64,000 bases of DNA from Coprobacter fastidiosus (GTDB lineage: Bacteria; Bacteroidota; Bacteroidia; Bacteroidales; Coprobacteraceae), in contig NZ_AP028032.1 of NCBI RefSeq assembly GCF_030296935.1, positions 1,984,001 through 2,048,000 on the forward strand, in the 5' to 3' direction. Below are positions 1,934 through 8,636 of this stretch, one piece after another. How positions within the stretch are numbered: the stretch's first letter is position 1; each line of letters starts with the position of its first letter. A program made the position numbers and the translations under genes. The notes below the pieces were generated by a model. That model saw only the letters and a program-made list of their open reading frames with translations, did no database searches and had not been told where the DNA came from.

Positions 1934-2106
1934 CTATTTACAATGACGTTTTGAATAAGATCCTTTTATAAAAGTGTGAATTTGAGTGTATCTTGAACTC
2001 TGTATATTTAGTATAATTAATCAAATCTTTTTTGCCTTTCGTCGTTAAAGATTAAATATTTACTGTCCAAAAAGTTGAAATCATTTCTTTTATTGTTGAA
2101 AAAAAC

Positions 2107-2114
2107 TAACTTTG
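2107..2114 (+). promoter_or_regulatory. Candidate -7 element for the structured RNA
   Basis: TAACTTTG fits the Bacteroidota TAnnTTTG -7 consensus exactly and would start transcription near 2120. The -33 TTTG is poor: only T-rich sequence lies at the right distance. It is placed well to drive the structured RNA that ends at the terminator 2295-2319. Confidence 0.5.
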
Positions 2115-2119
2115 TACAC

Positions 2120-2319
2120 GAAAGTCATTAGCAGCAAAAGACTTTTATATAATATTAATTGCGTTTGCAATCTTGTTCTTAATTCAGTGAAACGTAGGAA
2201 ATTTCATAGATATAACCGAGAACAGATGTGTGGACGTTCACGTTGCACGTGGGCGTTTCGGTCTGTTATATCCGGTTTTCCTACGACCGCACTGAGTGGA
2301 CTAGAAACGTCCACTTTTT
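2120..2319 (+). ncRNA. Structured RNA of unknown family, about 200 nt, ending in an intrinsic terminator
   Basis: This is a non-coding stretch with nested complementarity. CGTAGGAAA (2193-2201) pairs with TTTCCTACG (2277-2285). Inside it GATATAAC pairs with GTTATATC or, as an alternative, AACAGA with TCTGTT. At the tip a hairpin CACG-TTGCA-CGTG extends through G-T wobbles to about 11 bp. Near the 5' end AAAGTC pairs with GACTTT, and ATTGC with GCAAT. The stretch ends in a terminator hairpin. No long codon-like frame fits. It is either a free small RNA or a leader that stops transcription before the acyltransferase gene. I do not recognise the family. Its length recalls 6S RNA, but I cannot show the central bubble. 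Confidence 0.55.
2295..2319 (+). terminator. Intrinsic terminator of the structured RNA
   Basis: AGTGGAC (2295-2301) and GTCCACT (2309-2315) form a perfect 7-bp stem with loop TAGAAAC and five Ts (2315-2319). It lies 50 bases before the acyltransferase start, so read-through would be needed to express that gene from this promoter. Confidence 0.8.
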
Positions 2320-2370
2320 GTGTTCGTAGGAAAGAAGAGGGAGCATTAACGCAGATAACACATCTTCTTT

Positions 2371-3368
2371 ATGCAATACAGATTTTTGGATGTCATAAAA
2401 TACATTATGGCATTATTTGTTGTAGGAATTCATTGCCTGCAATTCAATGTACAAGCAGTTCCTCTATGGGTATATTTTTTCCTTCGCTGGGCAGTTCCTA
2501 TATTTTTTATTACTTCAGGCTATTTACTTGAACGCAAAACACAAACAAAATCAATCGATAAAGCCAATATAATTTATGAGCAATTTCTTCGTAAAAGTGT
2601 TAAACGTTATCTTATTTGGACGGTAATCTATCTTCCAATCACATTGTTTATATTTTGGACCAATGACTACAATTGGGTTATTGACTTGCTTTTCTTCATA
2701 CGTAATTTCTTTTTGTAGGCGAACAACCTTTCTCTTGGCCTTTGTGGTATTTACTTGCGCTTATTGTGGCCGTATTCATAATAAAATATTTTCGAACTCG
2801 TGGAGTACATTTAAAGGCTTTGTGGTATACCGGCTTAATATTTTTATTGGTAGGTTGTGAGTATGATCAACTTGATATAGAAAATCTTCCAAAAATTCCT
2901 CAACTTTTATGTAAAGCTTGTAAATGGATTTTTCCAAATGCACGAAATGGAGTATTTCAAGGATTAGCTTATGTCTCTACAGGAATGATGATTTTTCATT
3001 TACAGAAATATTCATTACGCATAAAATTTATTTTATTTACATTATGCATGAGTGCAAGTGTTCTTGTATTTATAATTGGAAATCTTACTCCTTTTAGCGG
3101 GTTACTTTCAGGTATAGCAGTTTTTATTGTTGCAATCGAAATAAATTTACCAGAAAAGAAAATCTATACTTGGCTGAGAAAAGAAAGCATTCTGATTTAT
3201 TTTCTGCACATGTATTTTGTGTTTTTATTATCACGGATATGGGGACATTTTACTTCTGATGTTTATAACCTTTGGCTTTTATGTGCTATACTAAGTACAC
3301 TAACAGCCTCTATTATAATAAAATTGAGCAAAAAACCACGTTTTAAATGGATTAATGAAATAATATAA
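2371..3368 (+). pseudogene. Acyltransferase family 3 membrane protein, frameshifted
   Basis: An integral-membrane O-acyltransferase of the acyltransferase-3 family, which acylates sugars of surface polysaccharides or other exported molecules. The N-terminal part begins with the family signature FLDVIKYIMALFVVGIHC (the motif histidine is present) and WAVPIFFITSGYLL, then meets TAG at 2716-2718. Reading one frame over from there, sequence like FVGEQPFSWPLWYLLALIV continues without a stop to 3368. One extra T in the five-T run at 2710-2714 would restore one frame of about 332 residues, the normal family length. The region looks more AT-rich than its neighbours, which may suggest transfer. It could be a decayed gene, a phase-variable gene or an assembly error. 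Confidence 0.85.
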
Positions 3369-3384
3369 TGATATTTCAGGCATA

Positions 3385-3873: not shown

Positions 3874-5076
3874 TCAACGTCTTCTACGTCCGACTAAATC
3901 TTTTATTCCGTCCATATCGAACGAAAGGGAAAAACGCAGAGTTTGATCTAACGGGCTACTCTGTGCAGTAGCAACTACATAAGCGGCATCCAGCCGAAGG
4001 ACCTTAAGTGCAAATCCTGCTCCGAAAGTAAAATATTTACGATTCCCCTTATACTTGTTTTCATTATAATATCCGGCCCTCAGAAAAAATTGATTGTTAT
4101 ATGCATACTCTGCACCTACCGAAAAATTTATCTCTTGAAGCTCTTCTTTAAATCCTCCGGGAGCATCTGAAAACGATTTGAAAATTCCGCTGATGGGAGA
4201 TGTACTTTGATACTTCTCTTTTGCAGCTTCATAAGCTTCTCTATCTTCGTTTCCCTCTACATCCAGATAATCTTCTTGTCTTGGAGCTGCAGGTACTAAC
4301 AGCTTATTCAAGTCAAGACTCAACGACAACGTATTATAATCAGCCAAAGGGAAAAGGAAAGTCGTTCCCAAACGCAAGTTCGTCGGCAAAAAAGCGCTGT
4401 TATTTCCGCCGTCATACGAAACTTTAGAACCGATATTGGAAATATTAAATCCCCATGACCACTGGCACTCGCTCCGTCCTACAATAGGATAAAAAGTCTG
4501 ATAACCGGATATATCCGCAGCGAAAGCCGCCGCCCCTTTCATTCCCTCGGTCTCATCATAAGCTAAATCTGAATAGATAAACCGGAAGACGACACCCATT
4601 GAAAAACTTTGTGACAATTTTCTGGAATAACCGAGGTCAAAGGCCATCTCATACGGATTTATAGAATTAGTTATATTTCCGCCATCATCTGTAATATTGA
4701 TCGATCCCAAAGAAAAATAACGCAATGAAGCACTCAATGCCTGTAAATCGCTACTGCCGAATTTCCAATAACCGGCCACATACGCTAAATTAATATCATT
4801 GACCAATTTACGCAGCCATGGAGTATAAGATACAGAAACTCCCGCACGGCTGAATGCAAAAGCATATTTTGCAGGATTCCAATATTGAGAGTTCACGTCA
4901 GGATCGGTAGCAGCTCCCAAGTCTCCCATAGATCCGCCTCGAGCATCCGGAGCAATACCCAAAGAGGTTACTCCCGTGTTAATCGGATTAAATTTATTCT
5001 TAACATCGTTCTGAGCAAACGAAGTAAAACAAGCTCCCAGAAAAGCAATTACAAAAAAACTTCGTATCCGGTTCAT
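3874..5076 (-). CDS. porV: Type IX secretion outer-membrane shuttle protein PorV (LptO)
   Basis: An outer-membrane beta-barrel of the PorV/FadL-like group. In the type IX secretion system PorV binds substrates leaving the translocon and presents them to the sortase PorU. The 400-residue protein has a signal peptide (MNRIRSFFVIAFLGACFTSFAQ), then a typical PorV opening, ITSLGIAPDARGGSMGDLGA with TDPDVNSQYWNPAKYAF. Alternating barrel strands follow (FFLRAGYYNENKYKG; YFTFGAGFALKVLRLDAAYV). It lies 60 bases downstream of porU in the same direction, which supports the assignment. It is unlikely to be a general porin, given the neighbour and the GGSMGD motif. Confidence 0.9.
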   Translation of the reverse strand: MNRIRSFFVIAFLGACFTSFAQNDVKNKFNPINTGVTSLGIAPDARGGSMGDLGAATDPDVNSQYWNPAKYAFAFSRAGVSVSYTPWLRKLVNDINLAYVAGYWKFGSSDLQALSASLRYFSLGSINITDDGGNITNSINPYEMAFDLGYSRKLSQSFSMGVVFRFIYSDLAYDETEGMKGAAAFAADISGYQTFYPIVGRSECQWSWGFNISNIGSKVSYDGGNNSAFLPTNLRLGTTFLFPLADYNTLSLSLDLNKLLVPAAPRQEDYLDVEGNEDREAYEAAKEKYQSTSPISGIFKSFSDAPGGFKEELQEINFSVGAEYAYNNQFFLRAGYYNENKYKGNRKYFTFGAGFALKVLRLDAAYVVATAQSSPLDQTLRFSLSFDMDGIKDLVGRRRR

Positions 5077-5136
5077 AAATATATTTCTCTCTTTTCTATT
5101 TTATTTCTCCTTAATAAAAACTGTATTCAAAGGCTT

Positions 5137-8100
5137 TTATTGTGCAACGACTATGATTTTTTTAGTCTTGGTAGCCTCCTTACTGCCTTCTGTCGAGATA
5201 TACGCCCGATAAAGATATACACCGGGCGCAACCCGTCTTCCGGCTTTATCGGTCAGATTCCAAACGATCGGTTGAGAAGTCCACATATCGGAAAGTCCGT
5301 CATCCGAATAAGTCCATAGTTCTGTACCCATCAAATTATAAATAGACAGCCTTAATTGTATATTCATATTCGGACGATCATGCTTCAAATAAAACTCTGC
5401 ATATTCCGACACCGGATTTTTTTGAGGATAAAGATCGAATATCTGGGGTTTCATACCCGGTACGACAACAAACGAAGTTGTCTTTTCCGTAGAATTACCT
5501 TCCGTATCCCAAACCTTAAACGTCAAAGTATGTGATCCTGCCGGTAAAGACGGTAATTGATACATTACTGTTCCTCGCCCGAATTCACCTACCACCGGAT
5601 CAAAGTAGTTATTAACAATATATTCTTGAGCCGAAGAATGGTCGATCGTTACCGTCATATTGTGCCCGATACCGATTCCAGAAATATTTATTCCCGATTC
5701 ATCTTCCACATCGGCAATAAACACAGGTTCTTCATTTACCTTATCGCCATAACTGAATGTCTCGCTATTCAGATACATAGAATGGATAATCGGACCTTCC
5801 GTATCCGCCTCGACATCATTATCCATGTCTCCTATGACAAACTGCTCATTCGATCCTTGTGCTTCACGTCCTTGCTCATCATACCCGTACAAATTCAATA
5901 ATCCGGTCTCCGAGGAGTAATTCAGTTCTACAGGCATTTTAAACTCAAATTCAAACTCTCCGTTCCGAACCGAATCTTTACCGGAATATAACATATTCGC
6001 ACGTTCATAAAACGTAAAGGGTACATCGCTTTCAAAACCATTCGTCGTTATCTCTTTCTTCGAATCATATAACCGGGGATATACCAAACCGTTAAAATCT
6101 TCTTTCTTTTCGCCTGTAGTATGATCCCGCACTTCTCCTTTCATTTTTACCCAAGAACGTGCTTTCAGAGTCTGTAAATCTGAAGTTTCGTCAATCGGAT
6201 CTCCGTTAATCTCGGTAATTACCATCTTATATTCAGGATAAGCCAACCGAAGCGCAGGGTCTCCCAAAAGAATAAAATTCAATTTGTTCAGATCTCTTTC
6301 ATACGGACGAACTCCATCCGAATTGACATATTCGGCAACAGCCTTCTTCGCAACACGCATCACATCTCCCAAGCGGTATCTCGAGCCGTCCGTATCCCGT
6401 TCGAAGATATTTTCGATCAACATTTTATTTAGAATGGCATTCTTTTCCATATATACCACTCGAGTCGTCGTAAAAAGGGCGATTCCTCCGCCTTTTGAAT
6501 TCAGGAACAACTCTTCTCCTCCAGAATTGGATTTGTCATCGAACCGGCTGAAATCGCAAGTTGCCGTAATCCATAACGGAAGACGCTTCAAATAAAGTTT
6601 CCGAATATCCGACATTTCCAAAATCTTCTCCGCCGTCCAGCTTGTAGAACTCCCATGCCCGCAAAAATTGATAAAGAGTAACCCATCGTCCAACAAATCG
6701 AACATACGTTTCTTTGCATCAGGGTAAGTACCTCCGCTCGCAGAACTTACCCGGGTATAAGCATCGAGATAAACTTTATACGGGAAAAATTCAGGATATT
6801 TCGACTCTATTTTATCGCACAACTCATCAGCCAATTCCATATGATCCGAATTATTTCCGTCATCGGCTACAAAACAAAGATTATTTTTCCATACTCCGAA
6901 ATTTTTGTTTTGTCCATATTCGATTACCTTATCCACGGCAACGGTCGCCTCGGCTAACGTTCGTACCGGAAAACGTCCGATACTAATATCCTGTTTATCA
7001 GCCAGTAGATTCGCGCCATCCGTGTCTTTCAAAAAACCGAAATAGTCATCCGTTACATAAGACGTACGTTCATCTAAGCTCGACTCTGACTGAAAAGTTA
7101 ATAAAAACGGATACTTATAGCCTTGCCATTCACTCGTAATCAAACGATTATCATACGTACCGTCTCCAAAAAGCAGCAAATAACGCGGTCTCAAATCTTC
7201 ATTTCCTTCAGCCCGGTCATAAAACATCTTCATAAAGCGCCTGTACGCTGTCGCATCAGGAGTTCCGGAAGAAAACTCATTGTAAATCTGTTCCGGATAT
7301 ACAATTAAATACGACATATCGTCTTCCGATTCATGGAATTTTCCCAAACGTTCGGCTTGTGAGTAAAATTCCGGCGGAACTATAATAACTAGATCGGCAC
7401 GGCTGTAACCATGCAAATTCTGGTTCGACACAATTCCTACATACTCAGGAGACGGGAATGTCCGTGCAGCATCGAATGCGACATACTCTTTTAATCCTAC
7501 CGACTGAGGAACAAACCACAAGCATCCGTCATGTTGTGAACTTTCGATAGATACAGGATTTTGAAGATCGGTTATATCCCAAATCCGAGGATCTGAAGAT
7601 CCTGATACATTAACGGCATATTTTAATAATGTATTGCGGGATTTCAAATTTCGGAATGCAACGATCCCGTCATAAATTTTCAGATCCCGTTCCATATTCA
7701 ATCGAATAAAATCGAGTCGCGCCGTAGAGGCCTGACTCCCTTCGAATTGTATCGTAATACGGTCGGGATTATCGGGATCTCTCACCCATGTTTTGGTAGT
7801 AGACGTAGAACGTCCGCTTGCATAAGTAGCTTCTTGGCTATTATTCAAAATCGCATAAACCCTATCCTGAGAAGATTGAGAAAGAGAGACATCGTTGTGC
7901 TTGATCTTTATCTGTCCGGCAATAGTATTGGAATTTGAGGCCAAAGCTTTAACAACAAAATCGATCTGCATCGAAACCGGAGTCTCCGTAATTCCCGGAA
8001 TATCGAATGTAAAAGTTCTGATTTGTTCATAAATAAAATCTTCACCATAAAATTTTCGGCCTGTACGTCCTAAATTAATAAGTTCCTGTTCATGCAAAGC

Positions 8101-8601
8101 ATAGTCATTAAAGACATTCACAGTTGTCGCACTCATAGACTCGTTTGCAGAGACTGTCTCCATCGTTCGAGGCTGGTCATCATTTTCGGACAAAAAATAA
8201 TATCCATACTGTGAATAAGGATTTCTTTCGTGTGTAAACGTCGAACTGCCGGCCGTCCATTTCACGACTCCCTGTGCATAGAAAATCATCCGCTCTCCGT
8301 AACGCATCACCGGCACTTCAGGCAAATCGTCGATATAAGGCTTTTGAAAGTCCTCCGGCAGCATTGCTCCGCCATATCCGTAAAGTTTCACTTTTGCCGG
8401 ATCGACAAATCCCCATGCCCGCAAATCGGCATAAGAAATCTGATATATACCGCTCTCCGATATTCTGATTTTTACCCAATAACCGGAATTTAATTTTGAT
8501 ATTCCGGTATATCGGTCAGACTGTGCATTCAACATTTCCGGGAAAAAGAAAATGCCAAAAGACAGTAACAAAAAAAATAAAACAACGGTATTCTTTCTCA
8601 T
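5137..8601 (-). CDS. porU: Type IX secretion sortase PorU (C25 cysteine peptidase)
   Basis: A gingipain-like C25 peptidase that removes the C-terminal signal of type IX cargo and attaches the cargo to a surface anchor. The signal peptide MRKNTVVLFFLLLSFGIFFF starts at the ATG at 8601; a TTG 18 bases upstream is less likely. The catalytic domain spans roughly residues 400-780. It holds the histidine of INFCGHGSSTSW near 650 and the cysteine of WITATCDFSRFDD near 682, so both catalytic residues are present. Ig-like domains follow, and the protein ends in a sorting-domain-like tail (GVYLYRAYISTEGSKEATKT). About 1,154 residues is normal for PorU. It precedes porV by 60 bases. Confidence 0.92.
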   Translation of the reverse strand: MRKNTVVLFFLLLSFGIFFFPEMLNAQSDRYTGISKLNSGYWVKIRISESGIYQISYADLRAWGFVDPAKVKLYGYGGAMLPEDFQKPYIDDLPEVPVMRYGERMIFYAQGVVKWTAGSSTFTHERNPYSQYGYYFLSENDDQPRTMETVSANESMSATTVNVFNDYALHEQELINLGRTGRKFYGEDFIYEQIRTFTFDIPGITETPVSMQIDFVVKALASNSNTIAGQIKIKHNDVSLSQSSQDRVYAILNNSQEATYASGRSTSTTKTWVRDPDNPDRITIQFEGSQASTARLDFIRLNMERDLKIYDGIVAFRNLKSRNTLLKYAVNVSGSSDPRIWDITDLQNPVSIESSQHDGCLWFVPQSVGLKEYVAFDAARTFPSPEYVGIVSNQNLHGYSRADLVIIVPPEFYSQAERLGKFHESEDDMSYLIVYPEQIYNEFSSGTPDATAYRRFMKMFYDRAEGNEDLRPRYLLLFGDGTYDNRLITSEWQGYKYPFLLTFQSESSLDERTSYVTDDYFGFLKDTDGANLLADKQDISIGRFPVRTLAEATVAVDKVIEYGQNKNFGVWKNNLCFVADDGNNSDHMELADELCDKIESKYPEFFPYKVYLDAYTRVSSASGGTYPDAKKRMFDLLDDGLLFINFCGHGSSTSWTAEKILEMSDIRKLYLKRLPLWITATCDFSRFDDKSNSGGEELFLNSKGGGIALFTTTRVVYMEKNAILNKMLIENIFERDTDGSRYRLGDVMRVAKKAVAEYVNSDGVRPYERDLNKLNFILLGDPALRLAYPEYKMVITEINGDPIDETSDLQTLKARSWVKMKGEVRDHTTGEKKEDFNGLVYPRLYDSKKEITTNGFESDVPFTFYERANMLYSGKDSVRNGEFEFEFKMPVELNYSSETGLLNLYGYDEQGREAQGSNEQFVIGDMDNDVEADTEGPIIHSMYLNSETFSYGDKVNEEPVFIADVEDESGINISGIGIGHNMTVTIDHSSAQEYIVNNYFDPVVGEFGRGTVMYQLPSLPAGSHTLTFKVWDTEGNSTEKTTSFVVVPGMKPQIFDLYPQKNPVSEYAEFYLKHDRPNMNIQLRLSIYNLMGTELWTYSDDGLSDMWTSQPIVWNLTDKAGRRVAPGVYLYRAYISTEGSKEATKTKKIIVVAQ

Positions 8602-8636
8602 TTTTATAATTCTAAGCAACAGAAATTTCTACCGGT

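Follow-up and report, generated by a model that had tools for sequence, protein, structure and literature searches.

An apparently uncatalogued, multi-copy Bacteroidales RNA with two competing folds, probably a bistable gene leader

The RNA and the gene behind it

The stretch of DNA analysed here, which we call the window, comprises 64,000 nucleotides of the Coprobacter fastidiosus genome (G000; contig NZ_AP028032.1, positions 1,984,001 to 2,048,000). Near its start, between a promoter-like box and a broken acyltransferase gene, lies a structured RNA that a first-pass annotation, made from the sequence alone, had singled out. The 9-mer CGTAGGAAA occurs at 2193-2201 and 2325-2333 and its complement TTTCCTACG at 2277-2285, exactly where that annotation had placed them; the CGTAGGAAA/TTTCCTACG/CGTAGGAAA triple is unique in the window, with 0.07 expected from 200 first-order Markov resamples. 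The nested inverted repeats had been taken to mark a structured RNA, which agrees with the covariation described below and with the predicted folding energy of the 215-nucleotide stretch (-67.7 kcal/mol against -47.7 kcal/mol for shuffled sequence; z -5.1, with 0 of 200 shuffles as good). Also borne out by the sequence are the perfect terminator hairpin reported within 2295-2319 and the TAnnTTTG box at the 5' end, and similar promoter-like boxes lie 48-112 nucleotides 5' of the 5' hairpin in many homologues. The parts of the RNA and its leader are as follows.

2107..2114, + strand: TAACTTTG, a box resembling the Bacteroidota -7 promoter element (TAnnTTTG), read from the sequence
2121..2319, + strand: likely extent of a short RNA, starting just past the promoter box and ending with the U-run, inferred from box and terminator
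2153..2302, + strand: core matching covariance model R1 at 119.3 bits, the sole match in the window
2158..2171, + strand: 5' hairpin ATTGC-GTTT-GCAAT, whose pairs show double-sided changes
2173..2178, + strand: TTGTTC, partner of the internal segment 2220-2225 (GAACAG), from the swap test and concerted changes
2185..2189, + strand: 5' strand of the outer P1 helix, CAGTG, partner of 2290-2294, from covariation
2188..2206, + strand: alternative hairpin TGAAA/TTTCA around the P1 5' strand, from near-invariant sequence and predicted fold
2193..2201, + strand: 5' strand of the inner P1 helix, first CGTAGGAAA copy, partner of 2277-2285, from covariation
2232..2258, + strand: apical hairpin, whose 3' strand (2247-2258) also complements the terminator arm, from paired cells and swap tests
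2277..2285, + strand: P1 3' strand TTTCCTACG, common to both folds, from covariation and the swap test
2290..2294, + strand: 3' strand of the outer P1 helix, CACTG, from covariation
2295..2319, + strand: terminator-like hairpin AGTGGAC...GTCCACT (2295-2301 with 2309-2315, a perfect stem), then TTTT and the U-run
2325..2333, + strand: third element, the second CGTAGGAAA copy, competing with the P1 5' strand for 2277-2285, from swap tests and predicted fold
2332..2358, + strand: leader segment able to pair with the 5' element 2155-2180, from predicted fold, with weaker comparative support
2371..3368, + strand: acyltransferase gene behind the leader, frameshifted, with 2371-2718 and 2742-3368 in different frames

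The acyltransferase gene is broken, as first described: 2371-2718 encodes the N-terminal third of an Acyl_transf_3 domain and the remainder, 2742-3368, lies in another frame. The frameshift, between about 2700 and 2742, adjoins a T run at about 2710-2714 and could reflect decay, phase variation or sequencing error.

A large family with conserved structure

A DNA search of 60 genomes returned two clear homologues, one with an identical 9-mer pair (L003) and one in which the pair was altered yet complementary (CCTCGGAAA with TTTCCGAGG; L002). A pattern derived from the three copies and scanned over one genome per species, about 85,000 species, matched at least 118 stretches, most of them in Bacteroidales; a stricter pattern gave 91 sequences including the window, one of which (L096) is a chance match. 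The inner P1 strands were exactly complementary in almost all of these pattern-chosen members (CGTAGG, CCTAGG, CCTCGG, CGTCGG or CTTAGG), and the outer P1 strands varied freely and jointly. Since these 91 sequences were picked by an exact pattern, the invariance of GTTTGC, TTGTTC and GGAAAT among them is uninformative. A covariance model built from 38 diverse members detected it in 105 of the 393 Bacteroidales genomes searched, with up to 24 copies in one genome. Duncaniella muris DSM 103720 and Heminiphilus faecis AM35 are among the carriers. Of 296 genomes drawn across Bacteroidota, 10 were positive, one being the window's own and eight belonging to the same class; the family is rare in Bacteroidota outside Bacteroidales. 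Thirty loci from chance or weak matches (193 kb) gave no model score above 15.7 bits. The RNA had no match in phage and plasmid records, and four pattern matches in viral contigs were put down to chance, as none had the family fold (L016, L017 and L018, rescored, reached at most 13.3 bits).

We based the main statistics on 101 hits of the model, almost all of which came from genomes sampled independently of the pattern. In these hits, 95.7% of cells in the modelled helices were paired, compared with 69.2% in shuffled sequences and at most 41% when the structure was slid, and the covariation score was 0.764 versus 0.229. The first-pass annotation had proposed aligning homologues to look for compensatory changes, and its idea clearly survived that test: all 25 modelled pairs have double-sided ones, including 8 of 8 in outer P1 and 7 of 7 in inner P1, where 99.6% of cells are paired. 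In the modelled helix of the apical hairpin, 98% of cells are paired and G-U pairs are present. The alignment was fitted to the structure being tested and hence favours it; the swap tests below lean little on alignment and are less exposed. This comparison shows that, as judged from aligned sequences, the P1 helix and the apical hairpin have been kept in evolution. We regard it as well supported by sequence that the RNA forms a large multi-copy family, apparently uncatalogued, in many gut and rumen bacteria.

Several arrangements depart from a single intact copy. Tandem copies on one contig lie about 60 bases apart in L218 (2295-2439 and 2501-2640) and about 980 bases apart in G080 (C66, 1247-1395 and 2372-2520). 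The window's own genome has three copies of the family. Besides the copy in the window, one at C1 2746632-2746784 (L173, 2633-2785) scores 61.7 bits, has a U-run and is followed 344 nucleotides downstream by the start of a mechanosensitive-channel gene, and the locus L008 of this genome holds two weak copies in tandem, at 1339-1537 (34.6 bits) and 1760-1947 (23.4 bits), with a spacing of about 420 bases. L111 and L112 carry the 5' part of the RNA as far as GGAAATTT only, a coding sequence beginning soon afterwards in L112; these are remnants or a shorter form.

Two competing sets of pairings

We examined the competing pairings by swap tests, in which the mutual fit of a member's own strands is compared with that of strands exchanged between sequences (98 members). 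The outer P1 helix, a positive control, gave a z of -37.5. The 5' TTGTTC region with the internal segment reached -11.4, and the two vary in step among homologues (for example TTATTC/GAATAA and TTTATGC/GCATAAA). The apical hairpin gave -12.0; when its 3' strand was tested against the terminator arm, the z was -13.7. The third copy with the P1 3' strand gave -9.2, and -8.2 in the 39 members with known starts, a pattern-chosen set in which a hairpin over the start codon gave -8.5 (controls -1.4 and 0.2). For the 5' hairpin element with the leader the z was -5.8, a weaker test than the rest since this element hardly varies. Three negative controls stood at 0.0, -0.5 and -0.5. Because the competing pairings beat swapped ones and clean controls lie near zero, both folds are apparently maintained, that is, two mutually exclusive helices both appear to have been preserved.

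Predicted pairing probabilities along a transcript growing from 2121 suggest an order for these structures. With the transcript end at 2230-2260, the TGAAA/TTTCA hairpin is predicted at 0.93 and the TTGTTC-GAACAG pairing at 0.5-0.57; the near-invariance of the hairpin sequence stems partly from the choice of pattern. P1 is predicted at 0.93-0.94 for ends from 2286 to 2328, the terminator hairpin at 0.86-0.90 for ends at 2316-2323, and the third-copy helix at 0.94 at 2334. The 5' element, at 2155-2180 and containing the 5' hairpin, has the leader segment 2332-2358 as its alternative partner, with a predicted probability of 0.98 by 2360 and 0.96-0.98 in the full leader, where the TGAAA/TTTCA hairpin is again predicted at 0.93. 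In the leader from 2121 to 2400 the predicted energy of the third-copy fold is lower than that of the P1 fold by about 15 kcal/mol, and the third-copy fold is the better one in 27 of 31 homologous leaders, with a mean advantage of 3.4 kcal/mol. Many divergent members have no stable local terminator stem, and a stem before the U-run is possible in them only with the apical 3' strand; in such members, termination would depend on which state the apical hairpin is in.

A bistable leader

Comparison gives good support to the RNA, its family and the two sets of pairings. As a reading of what they do, we favour, with a probability of about 0.6, a bistable leader acting in cis, which would terminate a share of the transcripts prematurely and rearrange on read-through. 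P1 would form first during transcription, and the terminator stem and U-run would stop part of the transcripts near 2319, yielding an RNA of about 200 nucleotides. Transcripts that read through would expose the third copy, which would capture the P1 3' strand; the 5' element would then pair with the leader, and this would rearrange the region of the start codon. If so, the gene would be gated at termination and then again at translation. Switching, its direction and its trigger are inferred; the trigger could be how fast the polymerase elongates, a protein or a ligand, or simply chance.

The RNA has the properties of a leader: a constant position just 5' of a gene (at most 160 nucleotides in 93 of 101 hits) and two mutually exclusive helices, both evolutionarily maintained. 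The first-pass annotation had raised both a two-state leader and a free small RNA as possibilities. The third copy is conserved and covaries with the P1 3' strand, which supports the two-state leader; a free RNA is probable as well, in one clade (see below).

Several points weigh against this reading. The third copy lies beyond the U-run and hence cannot itself decide termination. It is weak or missing in about 30 of the 98 members, its duplex energy being better than -8 kcal/mol in 68. The U-run after the terminator arm, counted as present when at least five of six letters are T, is found in 78 of 98 homologues; in about 20 it is degenerate. The start codon is predicted to open only slightly, from 0.37 with P1 forced to 0.44 with the third copy (p 0.014); for the window copy the values are 0.17 and 0.52. 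Pseudoknots are not represented in the energy model. In the 39 members one swap test meant as a control, of the P1 3' strand with the leader, gave z -5.0, probably because the leader stretch tested holds part of the third copy. Relatedness within subfamilies also inflates the swap tests; the clean controls have the same relatedness.

Genes downstream of the RNA

An open frame starts within 260 nucleotides downstream in 95 of the 101 model hits and at 20-160 nucleotides in 93, mostly at 64-104. Among 90 downstream proteins, Pfam assigned 9 to N6_Mtase, 7 to N6_N4_Mtase and 2 to C5 methylases, that is, about 18 or more DNA methyltransferases if these groups do not overlap. PADLOC was concordant, with 9 matches to type I and 7 to type III methyltransferase models. 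The same 90 proteins include nine with BspA-type LRR_5 repeats and nine with a type IX sorting tail, as well as restriction helicases, HSDR proteins and acyltransferases, and the pattern-chosen set adds EcoRI-type methylase, Eco57I, HsdM, PAP2, fimbrillin and HTH proteins. These are genes of many unrelated kinds with no common metabolic pathway. Several copies lie inside operons, about 30-80 nucleotides after genes such as those for a YhcG nuclease or a Schlafen-domain protein and just before a restriction or methylation gene. Because the genes served are often those of DNA defence or the surface, the role of the switch may be to hold back genes that are costly or phage-facing until the cell needs them, or to confine their expression to a subset of cells.

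In nine loci (L031, L051, L061, L066, L093, L097, L099, L100 and L129, the last incomplete), the RNA is directly preceded by a gene for a protein of 247-248 amino acids ending ...RVAFLSYESL.KQYEQE... and always followed by an N6_N4-type DNA methyltransferase. This protein had no Pfam match in the two loci scanned (L031 and L051) and is possibly an undescribed restriction endonuclease. A type IX sorting tail is found on the proteins of some genes downstream of family RNAs, and the window itself carries, after ispF, genes resembling the type IX secretion components PorV and PorU (3874-8619).

Alternative explanations

The strongest competitor, to which we give perhaps one chance in five, is a free trans-acting small RNA that ends at 2319, pairs with target mRNAs through an exposed part such as the 5' GCGUUUGC...UUGUUC, and merely neighbours the gene. 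Members from a Paludibacteraceae clade have strong U-runs with neither a third copy nor an adjacent start codon, so the family probably also includes a free small RNA, and the RNA of that clade is probably free-standing. The copy at C1 2746632 also has a U-run and a distant next gene, and multi-copy small RNAs are known in Bacteroides (PMC11697453). Against this stand the narrow distance to the start codon in most copies, the conservation of a third copy located past the U-run, the pairing of the leader across the start codon and several intra-operonic copies that have no promoter-like box just upstream.

A riboswitch proper, in which a pseudoknotted core would bind one small molecule or ion and so choose between the folds, is rather unlikely. 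The core is compact, its sequence frame is conserved and it probably contains a pseudoknot, and two mutually exclusive folds are joined to a terminator-like stem. The lack of a common metabolic pathway among the downstream genes speaks against a link to one metabolite. Such unrelated genes are unusual for metabolite riboswitches. Transcription attenuators and riboswitch expression platforms do resemble the present RNA in having mutually exclusive 5'-leader helices, a U-run behind a terminator-like stem and a start-codon hairpin; here, in contrast, no known aptamer or leader peptide was found, a competing strand lies beyond the U-run, and one element precedes many unrelated genes per genome.

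It is very improbable that the hairpins are a DNA element, a recombination or insertion site for mobile gene cassettes whose RNA has no function: the RNA and gene are indeed absent together (about 1935-3375) from a same-genus relative (G003), in which about 85 bases separate the aldose epimerase gene from ispF, there are many copies per genome, and the partial copies in L111 and L112 stop soon after the 5' part, but the one-sided placement before start codons, the upstream promoter-like boxes, the U-run after the stem, the pairing into the start codon and the G-U pairs of the apical helix indicate an RNA, and we noticed no common element where the inserted segment has its 3' end. Protein coding was rejected, as the 139-codon TTG frame over the RNA is not conserved, 11 of 101 members have any frame open across the core (8 in shuffles) and lengths spread evenly over the three classes modulo 3. 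A retron was likewise rejected, no reverse transcriptase being recognised by eye beside the three first copies.

Comparison with known RNAs

The first-pass annotation could not name a family, and the Rfam covariance search it had suggested returned none. Rfam 15 at its gathering threshold had no match to the RNA in the whole window, and 1886-2420 at E up to 5 gave only chance eukaryotic matches; in the family loci the RNA was unmatched in 20 loci at gathering and in 8 at E up to 2. The identities of 6S, 6S-Flavo, Flavo-1 and FopS were all rejected. The 6S gene is a housekeeping gene. 6S and 6S-Flavo RNAs (RF00013 and RF01685) are of similar length with a long irregular hairpin, whereas the present RNA is absent from most genomes and reaches 24 copies in others. 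RF00013 was found in none of 21 genomes including G000, with controls detected in E. coli and others; RF01685 matched neither G000 nor 12 relatives, a search in which no positive control gave a signal and whose result does not extend to other genomes, and did not match the window RNA itself. Flavo-1 (RF01705) is also a multi-copy structured RNA of Bacteroidota with unknown function, but it spans 76 positions and is absent from G000, where the present family has its three copies; it was found only in another genome (G006). The Bacteroides small RNAs FopS and GibS (PMC11697453) are likewise multi-copy Bacteroidales RNAs ending in a terminator, from which the present RNA differs in having no Rfam match.

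The cis-regulatory DUF805 RNA (RF03081) is present in one family locus, L172 (1366-1434, minus strand; 79 bits), between the family RNA and the start codon, placing two structured elements in one leader. It is a separate 68-nucleotide motif 3' of the present RNA and occurs in only 1 of the 20 family loci scanned. The Bacteroides-2 and GUCCY-hairpin motifs are published without an Rfam entry (PMC2864571). In the literature searched we found no description of the family, which does not establish that none exists; the thousands of candidate RNAs of PMC8040213 could include it.

Implications

Beyond what was first noted at this locus, the analysis adds the size of the family, its gene context and further competing pairings. 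An abundant class of regulatory RNA in common gut and rumen bacteria has apparently been missed by catalogues, and a covariance model of this kind would allow its detection in any Bacteroidales genome. We tentatively suggest, as a wider idea that we hold to be possible but not probable, that restriction-modification genes, together with other DNA-defence genes and surface genes, are controlled across Bacteroidales by a single, so far unrecognised class of sensor RNA, that its two folds switch in response to a common cue, for example infection or arrival in a new host, and that mobile defence genes bring their own RNA control with them. The link to DNA methyltransferases of several unrelated restriction systems offers a testable answer to how such systems are controlled upon transfer to a new host, and a second link, to secreted leucine-rich-repeat proteins, acyltransferases and fimbrillins, would tie the same control to the cell surface.
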